A stretch of DNA of 64,000 nt from an uncultured Curtobacterium sp. (GTDB lineage Bacteria; Actinomycetota; Actinomycetes; Actinomycetales; Microbacteriaceae): NCBI GenBank assembly GCA_913778205.1, contig CAJYUW010000024.1:62001-126000 (forward strand), given 5' to 3'. The position numbers and the translations under genes were made by a program. Position 1 is the first letter of the stretch; each line of letters starts with the position of its first letter. A model generated the notes under the pieces. The model was not told the DNA's origin, searched no databases, and saw nothing but the letters and a program-made list of their open reading frames with translations. Shown piece by piece: positions 27,995 to 36,783 of the stretch.

Positions 27995-28339
27995 GTGCTC
28001 CACCGTCCCGCCCCTCGTGCCCTCCGCCGTGGTGCCACGGCGCTCCTCCTCGGGGTCGTCGCGTCCGTGACGATGGCCGGCTGCGGCGCGCACGACTCGA
28101 CCGGGCAGATCGCCGTCACCGTGTCCGGGAACGCCGCGCAGCGTCCGTACGAGGTGGAGGTCTTCGCGGCGACGGGCAAGCTCTCCGAGCACCAGCGGGT
28201 GTTCCCCGGTGGGACGGCCGCGTTCGCGGGGGTCCCGCTCGGTGACGTGACCGTGCGGGCTGCGGACCTCTGCCCGGAGCACGCGACGGTCGCGGACGGA
28301 ACGGTGGCGACGGTCACGCTGACGACGACCGGGTGCTGA
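27995..28339 (+). CDS. Small putative lipoprotein
   Basis: 114 residues. An Arg-rich start, a hydrophobic stretch and the lipobox VTMAGC (Cys near residue 30) predict a lipoprotein anchored outside the membrane. The mature part (about 85 residues) looks like a small beta domain with two further Cys (LCPEH and the terminal GC). The function is not recognised. GTG 27995 lies 6 bases after TAGCCT, which overlaps the response-regulator stop, so it has its own likely leaderless promoter. Confidence 0.75.
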   Translation: MLHRPAPRALRRGATALLLGVVASVTMAGCGAHDSTGQIAVTVSGNAAQRPYEVEVFAATGKLSEHQRVFPGGTAAFAGVPLGDVTVRAADLCPEHATVADGTVATVTLTTTGC

Positions 28340-30582: not shown

Positions 30583-31452
30583 ATGCAGACCCAGGACCTC
30601 CTCGCCGCCGACACCGGGATGGGTGCCGTGACCCTCCGGGTCGCCGACCTCGACCGGACTGCGGCGTTCTACACGGACGGTGTCCGGCTCAGCGTCCTGG
30701 CGTCGACGCCGGGGCGAGTCGTGCTCGGCCGCGGTGCCGTCCCGATCGTCGTGCTCGAGCACGCGCCGGAACTGCGGCACGCGGGCGCGCACGAGGCCGG
30801 CCTCTTCCACACCGCGGTCCTGTTCGACACCCGCGCAGACCTCGCCGCCGCGCTCTACTCCGTCGCGACGCGGTACCCGCAGTCGTTCACCGGCAGCGCA
30901 GACCACCTGGTGAGCAACGCCTTCTACTGCACCGATCCCGAGGGCAACGGCGTCGAGCTCTACTGGGACCGCGACCGCAGCGAGTGGTCCTGGACGCACG
31001 GCACCGTCGAGATGGCCACGATCTTCCTCGACCCGAACGCGTTCCTCCGCGAGCACCTGACGGAGGCGGCGCTCGACGACGCCGCCGGGCGCCCCGGACG
31101 CGTCGGCCACGTGCACCTGTCGGTCGGGGACCTCCCCAGCGCGAAGGCGTTCTACGTCGACCAGCTCGGCTTCGCGACCACCGCAGGGTGGGGCGAGGCG
31201 CTGTTCGTCTCGGCGGGCGGCTACCACCACCACATGGCGATGAACACCTGGAACTCCCGCGGTGCCGGACGTCGGCAGCTCGCCCTCGGCCTCGGCCTCG
31301 TCCGGATCGAGGTGCCGGGCGCAGACGACCTCGGCGCGATCACCGAGCGGATGCGCGACCACGGGCTGCAGCTCGCGGACGACGGTCGGACCGTCGCGTT
31401 CGAGGATCCGTGGGCGAACCGCATCGAGGTCACGGCGCCGGGTCGCGGCTGA
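30583..31452 (+). CDS. Two-domain VOC family protein, catechol-2,3-dioxygenase-like
   Basis: 289 residues made of two vicinal-oxygen-chelate modules (about 10-130 and 165-285). Metal-ligand candidates are His in VGHVHLSVGD, His in the run YHHHMAMNTW and Glu in NRIEVTAPG, as in extradiol dioxygenases and CatE-like proteins of Bacillus. The likely reaction is ring cleavage of a catechol or quinone-type substrate with iron; which one is unknown. ATG 30583 follows GGGAGGAC. The palindrome upstream suggests induction by an aromatic or electrophilic compound. Confidence 0.87.
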   Translation: MQTQDLLAADTGMGAVTLRVADLDRTAAFYTDGVRLSVLASTPGRVVLGRGAVPIVVLEHAPELRHAGAHEAGLFHTAVLFDTRADLAAALYSVATRYPQSFTGSADHLVSNAFYCTDPEGNGVELYWDRDRSEWSWTHGTVEMATIFLDPNAFLREHLTEAALDDAAGRPGRVGHVHLSVGDLPSAKAFYVDQLGFATTAGWGEALFVSAGGYHHHMAMNTWNSRGAGRRQLALGLGLVRIEVPGADDLGAITERMRDHGLQLADDGRTVAFEDPWANRIEVTAPGRG

Positions 31453-31462
31453 CCCCGCCACC

Positions 31463-32566
31463 TCAGCGAGTCCGGAAGTAGCGGTGCAGCGCCCGTTCAC
31501 GAACGGTCCCGGCCGCCGCCGCGCCACCCGCCAGCGTGGCGACGAACCCGACGACTGCGACCCCGCACGCCCCGACGACCATCGGGAACGCGTCGGGAGG
31601 CGCCAGGCCCCGCGTCATCACCACGCTGACGGACACCGGGACCAGGACCGCCACCCCGCCCCACATCGCGTGTTGCACCAGCACCCCGAGCACCTGCGCG
31701 CTGCGCGGCACCCCGACGTGCAAGTCCGCGGCCGACGCCAGACGCCGACGCAGCACCGCGGCTCCCCCGACCGCGAAGCCGATGACCGCCGCGGCACCGA
31801 GCGGGACACCGACCGGCGGAGCCCCGGACGGTGTGAACACCGCTCCCGGACGGGCGTTGAGCTGGCCGACGGTCGGTCGGTCTTCGTCCTCGGCGCCGGT
31901 CGGAGCGAGCACCGTGCGGCGCAGCACCTGGACGGTGTCGTCGCGCTGCGGCCACACGGTCACCCAGCAGGCGTCGTAGGGGTGTCCGTCGTCGATCGCC
32001 GGTGCCAGCAACGCGTGGTCGAGGTCCGGGTCCCGGCCGTCGTCCGGGTAGGCGAACGCACCCGACACGGGCGCGGTCGTGTCGTCGGCCAGGACGAGGT
32101 CTGACCCCGGGCTCGTCCCGAGGACGTCCCGGACGGAGGGGGAGAGCAGGACGCCCGTCCTCCCGACGCTCGCACCGACTCCGAGGACACGGAGCATCCC
32201 GGGCGTCACCTCGTAGGTCGGGATCGCCGAACCGGGCAGTGACGCCACCACCGTCCCGTGCTCGAGCCGTCGGAGGGCGCCGGCGGCCACGACGCCCTCC
32301 GACGATCCGAGTGCGTCGCACGCACGGCCGTCGATGCGATCCTCGGCTCGCTGCACCATGGTCGCGGCACCGCTCGCGACGTACGCCGCAGCCGACCGGA
32401 CGTCCCCGACGAGCGCTGCGGTCCTGAGTCCCACGACGGCCGTCAGGAGCACGCCGCACACCACCGCCCACGTGCCGGCCCACGACGCTCCGGACGCGAC
32501 GTCACGCCAGGCCTCCCGGCAGACCTCCCGGACACGCATCCGTCCTGCGCCGAGCCGGGAGCTCAC
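31463..32566 (-). CDS. ABC transporter permease, FtsX/MacB-like
   Basis: 367 residues: one N-terminal membrane helix (about 28-50), a large extracytoplasmic domain (about 50-250) and three C-terminal helices, the layout of MacB/FtsX-type permeases. These do not move substrate through a channel but transmit ATP hydrolysis across the membrane. GTG 32566 overlaps the ATPase stop (GTGA). It is the last gene of the five-gene unit beginning with a secreted peptide and would work with the ATPase and the peptidoglycan-binding adaptor. Sequence match to the family is weak, so the call rests largely on topology and context. Confidence 0.72.
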   Translation of the reverse strand: MSSRLGAGRMRVREVCREAWRDVASGASWAGTWAVVCGVLLTAVVGLRTAALVGDVRSAAAYVASGAATMVQRAEDRIDGRACDALGSSEGVVAAGALRRLEHGTVVASLPGSAIPTYEVTPGMLRVLGVGASVGRTGVLLSPSVRDVLGTSPGSDLVLADDTTAPVSGAFAYPDDGRDPDLDHALLAPAIDDGHPYDACWVTVWPQRDDTVQVLRRTVLAPTGAEDEDRPTVGQLNARPGAVFTPSGAPPVGVPLGAAAVIGFAVGGAAVLRRRLASAADLHVGVPRSAQVLGVLVQHAMWGGVAVLVPVSVSVVMTRGLAPPDAFPMVVGACGVAVVGFVATLAGGAAAAGTVRERALHRYFRTR

Positions 32567-33159
32567 CGATGGCTCCCGAGGTCGAGCACGTCGTCGCAGG
32601 CGGCCCTCGTGTCGTCGTCGTGCGTCGCGACGACCACGGCGGCCCCGGCACCGGCGAGCGCACCGATCGCCTCGTTCACCTCGGCAGCGGTCGCCCGGTC
32701 GAGCTGCGCGGTCGGCTCGTCCACGAGCATGAGACCCGGAGCGCTCGCGATCCCGCGCGAGAGCATGAGCCGCTGCGCCTCACCACCCGAGAGCTCCGCG
32801 AACCGCGCATCGACCCGATGGCCCAGCCCGAAGCGTTCGAGCACGTCGCAGGCGTGCACGTCCGCTGTCCGCCGATCGCAGCCACGGGCGACGAACGACA
32901 GCGCCACGTGGTCCAGCACACGACGCCGAGCGACGCCGTGCGGGTTCTGGAACACCCACAGCGGACGACACCCCGGTGGGCGGTGCACGGTGCCGTCGGT
33001 CGGTCGGAGCATCCCCGCGATGATGGCCAGCAGCGTCGACTTGCCCGAGCCGCTGGGCCCGACCAGCGCGGTGACCGTGCCCTCGGCGAAGGTCCGGTCC
33101 ACGCCACCGAACAGTCGGACCCCGTTCGACCAGACGTGTCCGACGTCCTCGAGCCTCAC
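32563..33159 (-). CDS. ABC transporter ATP-binding protein
   Basis: 198 residues, a compact ATPase of the LolD/MacB class. Walker A GPSGSGKSTLLAII near residue 33, signature LSGGEAQRLMLSRGI near 120, Walker B LMLVDEPTAQLD near 142, then VVVATHDDDTR. GTG 33159 overlaps the adaptor stop (GTGA), and its own stop overlaps the permease start, so all three are translationally coupled. It should power export or immunity for the peptides encoded upstream. Confidence 0.93.
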   Translation of the reverse strand: MRLEDVGHVWSNGVRLFGGVDRTFAEGTVTALVGPSGSGKSTLLAIIAGMLRPTDGTVHRPPGCRPLWVFQNPHGVARRRVLDHVALSFVARGCDRRTADVHACDVLERFGLGHRVDARFAELSGGEAQRLMLSRGIASAPGLMLVDEPTAQLDRATAAEVNEAIGALAGAGAAVVVATHDDDTRAACDDVLDLGSHR

Positions 33160-34199
33160 CGGCACGGACGTCTCCGGTCCGGCAGCGCTCGTACCCGGTC
33201 GAGCGACGCACCGTTCCGCACACGGACGAAGGACTGCCCGAGCTCGGACCCGAGCACCTCGACGTGGACCGGCGCGCCGCGGGTCGGCTGCACGCACGCG
33301 GTCGCCCCACGCAGGTCGTACAACGCCGTGGGTGGCAGGACCTGCACGGTCCGCGGCTGCCGCAACGACCACGTCGCGGAGATCACCGGCACACCGTCCG
33401 ACGAGGCCACGGTGGCTGCGTACTCCGGGAGGGCGGCGATCGCGGCGAGGGAGGCGGCCGACCTGACCACACCGCCATCGTCGACCTCGACCGTGGTCCC
33501 GCCGATGCGGAGGTCGCGCGGTCCGGGCACGGGGTCGATCGGCAACGAATCCAGCCGCGCGCCGCGCAGTTCGGCCGGGAGCTCCGCGAGCACGCCGTCC
33601 GCGCCGACCGCCGCGCCGACGATCGCCGTGCAGGACCGGACTGTCTGCTCAGCCGCGGGCACCCAGCTGAACGGCGCCCGGGGCAGGGCGTCCTCCCGTT
33701 CCCCGGGTCGCACCCCACGCTCGGCGAGGAAGCGGAACGCCGACCGGAGCGTGCCCCGCCCCAGGATGCCGTCCTCACTGAGTCCGGCTCCACCGACGTT
33801 GAGCGCACGCTGCAGCCCGCGCACGTCGTCGCCGCGGTCGTCCAGCTCCAGGTCCCGCCACAACGGGACGTCGGTGGCCAGCGCGATCACCGGCTCTCCG
33901 TCGACGGTCGCCAGGACGTCGCCGCTGCGCAGCACGGCCCCCGTGGAGCACGTGGACGACGTGACCGTGCCCGTCCGCGAGGTCACCACCGCTCGCGGTG
34001 CCCCGGCGTCGAGTGCGACCTGGACCTGCCGCTCGTCGGCGTCCTCGCGTTCGGTGACGAGGACGGTCGCGGCAGGCGTGGCGGTCCGCAGCGACGACGG
34101 CGGCTCCGCGGGGAACGCCAGGACGACGGCCGCGGCGGTCCCCGCGGCGACGACCATCGCGACGAGTCCGACGACCGTGGCGGAGGGCAGTCGCGTCAC
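33156..34199 (-). CDS. Membrane-anchored adaptor with peptidoglycan-binding domain
   Basis: 347 residues. One N-terminal membrane segment (ATVVGLVAMVVAAGTAAAVV) leads to an extracytoplasmic chain with a PG_binding_1-like domain (about residues 110-165: LDDRGDDVRGLQRALN and DGILGRGTLRSAFRFL) embedded in beta-rich, HlyD/MacA-like sequence. In monoderm bacteria such proteins pair with MacB-like ABC transporters and may link them to the wall. GTG 34199 overlaps the lipoprotein stop (GTGA). The first bases of this gene are also present in the duplicated segment upstream as a remnant. Confidence 0.82.
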   Translation of the reverse strand: MTRLPSATVVGLVAMVVAAGTAAAVVLAFPAEPPSSLRTATPAATVLVTEREDADERQVQVALDAGAPRAVVTSRTGTVTSSTCSTGAVLRSGDVLATVDGEPVIALATDVPLWRDLELDDRGDDVRGLQRALNVGGAGLSEDGILGRGTLRSAFRFLAERGVRPGEREDALPRAPFSWVPAAEQTVRSCTAIVGAAVGADGVLAELPAELRGARLDSLPIDPVPGPRDLRIGGTTVEVDDGGVVRSAASLAAIAALPEYAATVASSDGVPVISATWSLRQPRTVQVLPPTALYDLRGATACVQPTRGAPVHVEVLGSELGQSFVRVRNGASLDRVRALPDRRRPCR

Positions 34200-34819
34200 G
34201 GCGTGCGCCAGAGGCCCAACGGATCGAGCCGGCACTGCACCGCCGCCTCGGTGGTGTCGTCGAACGGGAACGATCCGGCGTCGTAGTCGGCTCGCCATCG
34301 TTCCTCGCTGTAGTCGCTTCCCACGAGGCCCGCGTCACGGAGGCAGGGCACCGTGATCGTCGCGTCGTCCAGCCGATCAGGATTCCGACGGGTCTCGGCG
34401 AAGAGGTAGGTGACGTACTCGTCCGACTCCCGCTCACAGGCTCTGAGGACAGGATCGGACCGCTCGAAGAAGTCGTCCGGGTACCGATCGTCGAGGGAGC
34501 TCAACTCGAACCCGCCGTCGGGGTCGTAATCGATCCCGAAGCCGGAGTCTGCGAGGCAGCGTCCGACACGTTCGTGCGCCGCCTCGAGTTCCTCCGTGGA
34601 CACCGTGCCGTCAGCAAGGATCCGCGCCTCGAAGGGCGAGACGTCGTCGGCGAGTGCCGCCCGGAAGTCATCGGCCCACGGCCCGGCTGACTCCAGCGCC
34701 GCCTTCGGCACCTGGCTGGGGTCGCTGGCCGTCGTACCTGCGCAGCCCGAGGCGACGAGCACCGCGGCACACGCAGCCGCGATGCCGAGTGGGCCGCGAC
34801 CGCTCGAACGGCGATCCAC
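34196..34819 (-). CDS. Lipoprotein paired with secreted peptide 1
   Basis: 207 residues. The N-terminus has a basic start, a hydrophobic stretch and the lipobox LVASGC, predicting an outer-face lipoprotein. The mature protein is acidic, with four Cys shared with the paralogue encoded from 35834 (in GRCLAD, RACERE, VPCLRD and VQCRLD). Shared blocks also include VTYLF and RRNPD. The family is not recognised. GTG 34819 follows the peptide-1 stop with no gap, and the stop overlaps the adaptor start. One lipoprotein per peptide suggests immunity or a chaperone role, by inference. Confidence 0.8.
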   Translation of the reverse strand: MDRRSSGRGPLGIAAACAAVLVASGCAGTTASDPSQVPKAALESAGPWADDFRAALADDVSPFEARILADGTVSTEELEAAHERVGRCLADSGFGIDYDPDGGFELSSLDDRYPDDFFERSDPVLRACERESDEYVTYLFAETRRNPDRLDDATITVPCLRDAGLVGSDYSEERWRADYDAGSFPFDDTTEAAVQCRLDPLGLWRTP

Positions 34820-35098
34820 CTATCGTGCCGTCATGCCGTAGGAGACCACGTTGGCCCAGCAGAGTTTCTGCCGAGAGATCTTCCCCTTGCCCACCCAGTC
34901 GCCGTACTTCGAGGGCGCGTTCTTGATCGCGTTCCAGTGCCGGGCGCTGGAACAGGTGTTGTTCTTGCCCTGCATGAGCGTCACGGATCCGTAGCAGGCA
35001 GCCTTCGCCTCCGGCGCAGCGGCAGCGTCGACCGCGACCCCTCCGACGACGACGGTCCCGAGCACGGTGGCCCCGAGCAACATGTTCTTGATCGACAT
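34820..35098 (-). CDS. Secreted cysteine-containing peptide 1, bacteriocin-like
   Basis: 92 residues. A typical signal peptide (MSIKNMLLGATVLGTVVVGG, then PEAKA) leaves a mature peptide of about 59 residues, basic, with three Cys (ACYG, NTCSS, LCWAN). It aligns with peptide 2 only at spaced positions: C-aromatic-G, GKN, C, ARH-aromatic-N, K-aromatic-G, CW-small-N and YGM. The family is not recognised; it is not an obvious lactococcin 972 or lantibiotic. It heads an operon with a lipoprotein and an ABC-type export or immunity cassette, which is the basis for the bacteriocin-like call. GGGGAG precedes ATG 35098. Confidence 0.8.
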   Translation of the reverse strand: MSIKNMLLGATVLGTVVVGGVAVDAAAAPEAKAACYGSVTLMQGKNNTCSSARHWNAIKNAPSKYGDWVGKGKISRQKLCWANVVSYGMTAR

Positions 35099-35129
35099 CG
35101 ATCTCCCCTTCTGAACTGATGTTTCACCG

Positions 35130-35834
35130 TCAACGTATCGCCGGATCGACGATGCCGCAACCCCGCCCGGTCCGTCCGGCAGACTGGCCCCGTGACTGAC
35201 GACCGAGTGCGACGACCGTGGCGGAGGGCGGTCGCGTCACGGCGCGCGCCAGAGGCCCAACGGATCGAGCCGGGCACTGCACCGCCGCCGGATCCCACTC
35301 GGAGAACGGGGGCCGGCCGTCGTCCGTGTCCTCGCGCCAGTCCTGCTCCGTGTAGGAGTCGTCGACGAGCGCGGCAGACCGGAGACACGCGACGGCGATC
35401 CGGGCTTCGTCCAGCTTGTCCGGGTTCCGTCGCACCTCACCGAAGAGGTACGTGACGTCCGAGCTGAACGCACCGGTGCATCGCGCCATCGCGTCGTTGA
35501 CGTCGTCGGCACTGGCGTCCCGAAGTGCGTCCTCGACCGGCGCCGCCTCGGCCGTTCCGTCGTCGCGGGTGGTGTAGCGGTAGCCGAGGTCCAGCATGCA
35601 GGCCGCCGTCCGAGCCTCTGCCTCCCGGAGTTCGGACACCGTGATCGATCCGTCCCGGAGCACCGCCCGCTGGTACTCGCTCGTCGACGAGAACGCATCA
35701 GCGAAGGCCGCGGCCCACGGACCCGCTGCCCGGAACTCGGTGGTGGGCGCTGGTGCCCCGGGCTCGGACGCACACCCGACGAGGCCGACGATCGGCACCG
35801 ACAGCCAGGCAGCTGCCAGGACCCTCCCACGCAC
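35130..35834 (-). CDS. Lipoprotein paired with secreted peptide 2, C-terminus frameshifted
   Basis: 234 residues as read. The lipobox IVGLVGC follows a hydrophobic start; the mature part aligns with the lipoprotein at 34196 (AGPWA, DVTYLF, VRRNPDKLDEA, CLR, AAVQC). After AAVQC one extra C in the run at about 35271 shifts the frame. Without it the protein would end in RLDPLGLWRAP at 35237, exactly like its paralogue; instead it runs on for about 50 unrelated residues through the duplication junction. GTG 35834 begins one base after the peptide-2 stop. The core may still fold; a sequencing error is an alternative. Confidence 0.72.
   Translation of the reverse strand: MRGRVLAAAWLSVPIVGLVGCASEPGAPAPTTEFRAAGPWAAAFADAFSSTSEYQRAVLRDGSITVSELREAEARTAACMLDLGYRYTTRDDGTAEAAPVEDALRDASADDVNDAMARCTGAFSSDVTYLFGEVRRNPDKLDEARIAVACLRSAALVDDSYTEQDWREDTDDGRPPFSEWDPAAVQCPARSVGPLARAVTRPPSATVVALGRQSRGQSAGRTGRGCGIVDPAIR
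35132..35160 (-). promoter_or_regulatory. Promoter of peptide 1 operon
   Basis: On the minus strand TTGCGG (35155-35160), 17 bases, TACGTT (35132-35137). The same element precedes peptide 2. The predicted leader is about 28 bases and carries GAAGGGGAG before the ATG. Confidence 0.65.
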
Positions 35835-35835
35835 G

Positions 35836-36120
35836 TCAGGCCCGCACCATGCCGTACTGCGCGATGTTCGACCAGCATGCCTGCTCGTAGGACCACGCGT
35901 GGTCACTCGCCACCGACCCCCACTTCATGGTCCCGCTGGCGAGTCGGTTGAAGTGCCTGGCCCTGCCGCACCCGGTGTAGTTCTTGCCCTTGCTCGCCGT
36001 GATCTGCCCCCAACAGGCCGTGGCCTTCGCCTCCGGCGCAGCGGCAGTGTCGACCGCGACCCCTCCGACGACGACGGTCCCGAGCACGGTGGCCCCGAGC
36101 AACACGTTCTTGATCGACAT
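35836..36120 (-). CDS. Secreted cysteine-containing peptide 2, bacteriocin-like
   Basis: 94 residues. The signal peptide differs from that of peptide 1 by only two residues up to PEAKA (MSIKNVLLGATVLGTVVVGG), yet the mature part is largely different: three Cys in ACWG, TGCGR and ACWSN, the shared GKN, ARHFN and YGM positions, and otherwise free variation. The mature peptide is about 60 residues and basic. It is followed by its own lipoprotein gene but not by its own ABC genes, so it would depend on the cassette downstream of peptide 1. GGGGAG precedes ATG 36120. Confidence 0.8.
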   Translation of the reverse strand: MSIKNVLLGATVLGTVVVGGVAVDTAAAPEAKATACWGQITASKGKNYTGCGRARHFNRLASGTMKWGSVASDHAWSYEQACWSNIAQYGMVRA

Positions 36121-36153
36121 CGATCTCCCCTTCTGAACTGATGTTTCACCGTC

Positions 36154-36182
36154 AACGTATCGGTGGATCGACGACGCTGCAA
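36154..36182 (-). promoter_or_regulatory. Promoter of peptide 2
   Basis: On the minus strand TTGCAG (36177-36182), 17 bases, TACGTT (36154-36159), a duplicate of the peptide-1 promoter. It is divergent from, and partly overlaps the upstream region of, the acetyltransferase gene. Confidence 0.65.
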
Positions 36183-36213
36183 CCTCGCCCGGTCCGTCCG
36201 GCAGACTGGCCCC

Positions 36214-36783
36214 GTGACTGACGACCCCCGCTGGGAGGTGCTCGAGGAGAGCGCCCTGACCCTCGCCGACCACGAAGCGATCACGGCACTGCTCGCGCAG
36301 GCGTTCCCGGACTGGTCGCACTGGTTCCTGGGCAGCCGCAGCTGGAGCGGCATGCAGCCCGAACGGCGCGTCCTCGCACGCGACGCGGACGGCGTCGTCC
36401 TGGCGCACGTCGGCATCCGCCGTATCTTCATCACGGTCGGCGACCGCGACCTCCTCGTCGGGGACACCGGGCTGGTCGCGGTGGCGCCCCGGCTGCAGGG
36501 CACGGGGATGGGCCGCGAGCTCATGGAGCGCGCACGAGGCGTCCTCGAGGGCCTGGCCGTTCCGTTCGGCTTCCTCGGCACCGGCGAGGACCGCGTGCCG
36601 TTCTACGCCCGGCTCGGCTGGGAGACCCTCGGCGACGACGTCGTCACCGACTACACCGCCTTCACCGCGGAGGGCGCCGGCATGCCGATGACCGAGCAGG
36701 GTGGCTGGATGGTCCTGCCCGTGACGTCGGCGCGCGAGGACTGGCCGACGGGGTCGGTCCGCCTGAACGCCCAGCAGGTGTGA
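36214..36783 (+). CDS. GNAT family acyltransferase, NodA-like
   Basis: 189 residues. The central part resembles NodA and related GNAT acyltransferases: ERRVLARDADGVVLAHVGIR, then VGDRDLLVGDTGLVAVAP, the acyl-CoA binding PRLQGTGMGRELMERARG and FLGTGEDRVPFYARLGW. The substrate is unknown; NodA itself N-acylates chitooligosaccharides, but nothing here implies that reaction. GTG 36214 lies 6 bases after CAGACT, fitting a leaderless mRNA. The gene is divergent from peptide 2, and its first codons were copied in the tandem duplication. Confidence 0.8.
   Translation: MTDDPRWEVLEESALTLADHEAITALLAQAFPDWSHWFLGSRSWSGMQPERRVLARDADGVVLAHVGIRRIFITVGDRDLLVGDTGLVAVAPRLQGTGMGRELMERARGVLEGLAVPFGFLGTGEDRVPFYARLGWETLGDDVVTDYTAFTAEGAGMPMTEQGGWMVLPVTSAREDWPTGSVRLNAQQV

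Follow-up and report, generated by a model that had tools for sequence, protein, structure and literature searches.

Lactococcin-972-like proteins are thought to be secreted through Sec, to form a beta-sandwich and to bind lipid II, and genes for immunity and transport are presumed to accompany them (PMC11796350); clusters of the Lcn972 type often carry a seven-transmembrane DUF1430 protein and an ATPase (PMC12345188, PMC11796350). Mediterrocin is described as having 18% identity to Lcn972 yet a similar predicted fold (PMC12345188), and according to the streptococcin B paper the roles of the genes for immunity and transport are unverified in every lactococcin 972 locus (PMC11796350). For nisin, NisI is described as binding the peptide and NisFEG as expelling it (PMC8538875). 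Here we describe a seven-gene locus in a 64,000-nucleotide stretch of an uncultured Curtobacterium sp. (contig CAJYUW010000024.1, positions 62,001 to 126,000, from a genome of 3.43 Mb; this whole stretch is the window, and coordinates refer to it unless a locus is named). The locus encodes two small peptides, each followed by a lipoprotein, and one ABC (ATP-binding cassette) transporter set of adaptor, ATPase and permease. We consider it probable that this is a polymorphic system of Sec-secreted bacteriocins with cognate lipoprotein immunity.

Paired peptide and lipoprotein genes before one ABC set

The seven genes lie on the minus strand between two plus-strand genes, in the order peptide 1 (35836..36120), lipoprotein 1 (35130..35834), peptide 2 (34820..35098), lipoprotein 2 (34196..34819), adaptor (33156..34199), ATPase (32563..33165, start approximate) and permease (31463..32566), and the last four are joined by end-to-start overlaps. 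The precursors of 94 and 92 aa have signal-like N termini and mature parts of about 60 and 59 aa respectively, with three Cys each; cleavage is placed at an Ala-X-Ala site, and the signals were judged from the sequence rather than with a signal-peptide predictor. A sequence-only reading of the window had proposed two secreted Cys-peptides of this size with paired lipoproteins and a coupled ABC set, and the gene content agrees with it. The duplication of the unit that it also proposed is borne out by two direct repeats on the minus strand. The first is of 204 nt at 97% identity, with copies upstream of and inside peptide 1 (36023..36226) and peptide 2 (35001..35204), and covers the leader and the signal-peptide region; the second is of 70 nt at 96% identity and covers a lipoprotein 3′ end and adaptor start, with one copy where lipoprotein 2 ends and the adaptor gene begins (34163..34232) and the other after lipoprotein 1 (35204..35273), where the adaptor start is a remnant. 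The variable core, consisting of the mature peptide and most of the lipoprotein, sits between these homologous arms. Because the repeats cover only the arms, the two peptides are alike in the signal region (identity 0.88) and unlike in the mature part (0.37). No sigma-70-type promoter was recognized by consensus, so the promoter postulated for each unit is putative, although the leader is conserved. The C-terminal frame of lipoprotein 1 is shifted relative to aligned relatives and enters the adaptor-start remnant (35130-35300); a real mutation and a sequencing error are both possible.

Peptides of this kind fall into two types, A (with a CWGQ or CWRQ start, and including peptide 1) and B (with a CYGS start in most, and including peptide 2), and we labeled a lipoprotein A or B according to the peptide just upstream of it. 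Of the 40 lipoproteins, drawn from 24 loci, that entered a first tree, 15 are labeled A and 17 B, and eight are not directly preceded by a peptide. This tree has a single change of the A/B label, and none of 500 shuffles gave as low a count, either for A against the rest or for B against the rest. A more careful tree of 38 mature lipoproteins recovers the A side, peptide-less members included, with support of 99/96 and in 200 of 200 bootstrap trees. Both trees omit L041 and L042 (broken frames), the broken lipoprotein of L049, a fragment in L050, L062 (a near-copy of L063), L070, L071, L105 and L110; the 38-sequence tree further omits L063 and L064, and for it the signals, as well as the frame-shifted tail of lipoprotein 1, were trimmed off. 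Among the 32 pairs there is no A peptide directly upstream of a B-side lipoprotein, nor a B peptide upstream of an A-side one, the A partner in L051 being a truncated peptide remnant. The proposal that each lipoprotein is partnered with its own peptide is thus supported by a lipoprotein tree that splits by peptide type.

The constant genes behave differently. The label changes four times on the adaptor tree (drawn without L059 and L061) and five times on the permease tree (without L061), and neither type is clustered, with 134 (B) and 191 (A) of 500 shuffles as low for the adaptor and 226 (B) and 237 (A) for the permease. Loci carrying both types are clustered (7/500 and 3/500 shuffles as low on the adaptor and permease trees). 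One example of a switch is the A locus L058 and the B locus L044, which are sisters in both trees with support of 100; a second is L039 (A) and L043 (B), sisters with support of 94 and 90. Signal identities in these two comparisons are 0.91 and 0.88, and mature identities are 0.41 and 0.43. Across 371 peptide pairs, signal identity correlates with permease identity (Spearman 0.38), mature identity hardly does so (0.06), and mature identity follows type (0.86); this comparison omits L105, L110 and the second A peptide of L050, and the identity means omit L063 and L064. Because the lipoproteins split by peptide type and the adaptors and permeases do not, the pattern is one of module exchange, in which the mature peptide and lipoprotein travel jointly before a constant ABC set.

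Of the eight lipoproteins that no peptide directly precedes, three are in loci lacking any peptide of their type: those of L039 and L060, which have A peptides only, are on the B side, and that of L046, which has a B peptide only, is on the A side. The others are A-side lipoproteins in L051, L053 and L054, which carry both types, and B-side lipoproteins in L052 and L055, which carry B peptides. This placement is what orphan immunity genes, retained against rivals, should show.

Distribution in the genus and the order

We searched 66 genomes of the genus and 396 of the order; presence counts are lower bounds, at most 48 candidates per genome being scored for the genus lipoprotein search, 32 for the genus adaptor search and five for the order adaptor search. 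Peptide 2 has relatives in 27 of the genus genomes, or 26 after a match in G251 (E=0.01, within an 829-aa frame) was dropped as chance; a second weak match, in G290, was dropped on the same ground. Among named genomes, the nearest peptide relatives are in Curtobacterium. The mature parts are under purifying selection within each type, with a median pN/pS of 0.35 for 28 B pairs and 0.48 for 45 A pairs (from eight B and ten A sequences, equal length only), and this together with the relatives in 26 of 66 genomes indicates that the peptide genes are real. Among the aligned peptides, that of L057 has lost the first Cys and that of L061 the third.

Peptide homologues standing apart from lipoprotein and ABC genes were sought in the genus as a test of the sequence-only reading, and the outcome did not refute it. 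The lipoprotein profile (E≤1e-29) matches in all 26 peptide genomes as well as in G267 and G269. Adaptor matches (E≤1e-30) were obtained in G267 and in 25 peptide genomes; in the remaining one (G285, L061) the cassette has decayed and the permease is reduced to a remnant, the sole trace of the ABC set. Four loci (L041, L042, L059, L061) have interrupted lipoprotein or ABC genes though the peptide gene is present, and sequencing error is possible. G269 has a lone short lipoprotein (L071, 8354-9040 of contig C2); no adaptor was found within its 16-kb stretch, and the genome gave no peptide match. In G266 (L050) a single ABC set is preceded by an array with four genes each for peptide and lipoprotein, together with a fragment of a lipoprotein gene.

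The cassette occupies one site in most genomes. One border is a plus-strand gene that we take to encode a GNAT acetyltransferase-like protein (36214..36783, start approximate), which the cassette adjoins in 24 of 26 genomes, and in 23 of these the other border is a presumably glyoxalase-like gene (30583..31452 in the window, plus strand, start approximate); in G272 and G273 the cassette is at another place. Where the site lacks a cassette the flanking genes are adjacent (16 of 16 and 15 of 16 in two sets, jointly 23 of 24 distinct genomes), with 37-382 bp between the flanking-gene matches; among these sites, that of G288 is without a glyoxalase match and G273 has its cassette elsewhere. Because the flanking genes are adjacent where the site lacks it, the cassette is a presence/absence island at one site. 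Elsewhere in the window (27995-28339, plus strand) there is a 114-aa frame that we take to be lipoprotein-like, after a presumably response-regulator-like frame.

Complete sets are also present in a Frigoribacterium, in another member of the Microbacteriaceae and in G150, of another genus. The adaptor profile (E≤1e-5) matches in at least 174 of the 396 order genomes, with five candidates per genome scored, and the weaker of these matches are probably generic adaptors. In 40 loci hand-picked from the adaptor matches, mostly strong ones (L116-L155), a lipoprotein match shares the strand of the adaptor in 35 and lies solely on the opposite strand in three, and two have no such match. The mature Cys-peptide profile matches, among the 396 order genomes, in the window's genome only, and in 18 of the 40 loci a different small signal-bearing candidate peptide is ahead of the lipoprotein; these candidates were chosen either for a signal-like N terminus with rules on start site and composition, or from a profile match. 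The slot peptides of L125, L136 and L065 carry the first two Cys only. In three loci of other genera (L131, L152, L167) several lipoprotein-profile matches surround one adaptor, which suggests immunity arrays there too.

In two loci of two other genera (L140 in G513 and L135 in G559), the peptide in this slot belongs to Pfam Lactococcin_972 (PF09683; 33.7 and 35.9 bits, cut-off 22), and it is followed by lipoprotein, adaptor, ATPase and permease. Chance placement of such a gene so near a cassette is very unlikely, by our own estimate of about 2 kb in 3.5 Mb, and the bacteriocin-like interpretation offered from the sequence gains support from these homologous cassettes. The window's genome has a Lactococcin_972 gene of its own at a separate place (G000:C30:11364-11546, seen in L163 and L166; 51.7 bits).

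We judge it somewhat more probable than a coin toss that these loci represent an order-wide actinobacterial bacteriocin platform, in which a conserved immunity machine of lipoprotein, adaptor, ATPase and permease serves many unrelated or unrecognizably diverged secreted peptides, lactococcin 972 homologues being one kind and the Curtobacterium Cys-peptides another; mature peptide and lipoprotein would be exchanged between arms at the signal-peptide region and the adaptor start, and lipoprotein arrays would give protection against rivals.

Proposed immunity role and its alternatives

We infer the following mechanism. Each peptide would leave the cell through Sec and be cleaved to a Cys-containing, all-beta protein of 59-60 residues. 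Its action would be extracellular and directed at close relatives, probably at their envelope, in the manner of lactococcin 972. From its anchor on the membrane's outer face, the lipoprotein would recognize its own peptide type and protect the producer jointly with the shared adaptor-ATPase-permease complex, which may use ATP to drive bound peptide off the membrane, much as with NisI and NisFEG. Mature peptide and lipoprotein form the swappable module between homologous arms, and the pump is the constant part. The sequence-only reading allowed the cassette either to export the peptides or to expel them; since the peptide signal is Sec-like, an immunity pump is more likely than an exporter.

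The lipobox Cys is invariant in all 24 aligned lipoprotein rows, and the ABC genes adjoin; the lipoprotein has no match to a solved structure at E≤0.001 by profile or Foldseek, and a second look likewise gave no clear match. Neither Pfam nor NCBIfam has a usefully scoring family for the window's peptides, lipoproteins, adaptor or permease. The ATPase belongs to the ABC class, and its 25 best NCBIfam models, all below their own cut-offs, include AztA, CydD, FtsE, LolD, MacB and a lactococcin-972-associated ABC model. Among 13 aligned adaptors, the peptidoglycan-binding families PF09374 and PF01471 are matched weakly in ten and six respectively, and no HlyD model was matched; one of 13 permeases matches MacB_PCD (3.6e-5).

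The sequence-only reading recognized no described bacteriocin family for the peptides, and this holds for Pfam and NCBIfam, including PF09683 and TIGR01653 at E up to 1; a profile-profile comparison of a Curtobacterium peptide with the Lactococcin_972 family gives a probability of 1.5% only. The reading needs amending in that, of the described kinds, lactococcin 972 comes nearest, through gene context and, weakly, through fold. The prediction for the mature peptide is all-beta, peptide 2 included, and two lactococcin-972-family structures are among its best structural neighbors, but the matches are weak. The Curtobacterium peptide probably works like lactococcin 972, and we do not class it as a member because its sequence does not match the family.

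Several points weigh against a bacteriocin system with exchanged immunity pairs. Bacteriocin activity is read from sequence, the predicted fold match to lactococcin 972 is weak, and the peptides are under purifying selection within each type. The Lactococcin_972 peptide of G513 is under the NCBIfam cut-off (22.4 against 32.1 bits), nine further slot peptides that were scanned have no Lactococcin_972 match, and the two slot cases are among 25 Lactococcin_972 matches in 22 of the 396 genomes, most of which neighbor other genes. The flank tree unites L058 with L044 and L039 with L043 only weakly (24 and 77), and linkage alone could hold pairs together. Lastly, the window permease and its relatives have no DUF1430 match, a weak test because the large membrane-protein-like frame beside the genome's own Lactococcin_972 gene, used as a control, fails too and has no Pfam match.

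Among the alternatives the most durable, though unlikely, is an export system, in which the lipoprotein takes its own peptide after Sec and passes it to the ABC complex for transit across the wall; even so the peptide could be antibacterial, with lipoprotein and pump serving secretion rather than immunity. Cognate pairing and the adaptors' peptidoglycan-binding matches suit such a hand-over, and the ATPase matches TIGR03608 ('putative bacteriocin export ABC transporter'), though at 99 bits against a cut-off of 254.85. However, lipoproteins occur without a peptide, which is hard to explain for a mere export helper, and a dedicated partner would be useless in the loci that have no peptide of its type. 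We regard as improbable a role of the peptides as secreted signals, as toxins aimed at other organisms or as tendamistat-like inhibitors of enzymes, with the lipoprotein as receptor or guard: structural matches of the tendamistat kind exist but are weaker than the lactococcin-972-family ones, and presence or absence at one site, switching of pairs and PF09683 peptides in the slot are left unexplained. Neighboring genes may share a history without functional contact, and the lipoprotein-ABC set is widespread beside many different peptides, yet it is highly improbable that linkage by itself accounts for the pairing while the lipoprotein does something unrelated, such as envelope-stress sensing for the pump, as recombination has swapped the mature part and kept the signal region and ABC genes with zero A/B mismatches among the 32 pairs.

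If the bacteriocin-immunity reading is true, the lipoprotein-adaptor pair is a handle for actinobacterial secreted bacteriocins missed by sequence families, and it suggests how unmodified Sec-type bacteriocins gain specific immunity. Bacteriocins of phytopathogenic Corynebacterium were reportedly the subject of a 1979 study. Bacteriocin production has been assayed in plant-associated coryneform bacteria, Curtobacterium included (PMC12628682), and the Curtobacterium locus is a candidate gene set for activity of this kind.

Comparison with described systems

Like the lactococcin 972 family (Lcn972, streptococcin B, mediterrocin), the Curtobacterium locus combines a Sec-type precursor and a small mature protein with adjacent ABC genes, and a PF09683 peptide fills the same slot in the two other genera. 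Lipid II binding and inhibition of septum formation also characterize the lactococcin 972 family. The Curtobacterium peptides differ in having three Cys and no sequence match to the family, and their partner genes encode a lipoprotein, an adaptor, an ATPase and a permease, in contrast to the DUF1430 protein and ATPase frequent in Lcn972-type clusters. The proposed mechanism is that of NisI or SpaI with NisFEG or SpaFEG, namely a peptide-binding membrane lipoprotein and an expelling ABC transporter. Unlike NisI and SpaI, the Curtobacterium lipoprotein has no clear solved-structure match and several lipoproteins may stand before a single pump; unlike NisFEG and SpaFEG, the cassette has an adaptor with peptidoglycan-binding matches. 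No lanthionine modification gene was recognized in the cassette, in a look at the locus only, where the seven genes take up all the space from one flanking gene to the other. MacAB and LolCDE offer a likeness in the adaptor gene, in the ATPase's nearness, below the cut-offs, to the FtsE, LolD and MacB models and in the single MacB_PCD permease, but here the host is actinobacterial, there is a lipoprotein partner, and the adaptor is known only by its weak peptidoglycan-binding matches.

The staphylococcal EsaG loci reportedly exemplify polymorphic toxin-immunity loci in which immunity genes stand in rows. As in such loci, pairs are exchanged here as units and there are extra immunity-like genes lacking a toxin; in Curtobacterium, in contrast, the exchanged parts belong to whole small bacteriocin-like peptides, and the immunity-like genes encode lipoproteins with a shared pump.

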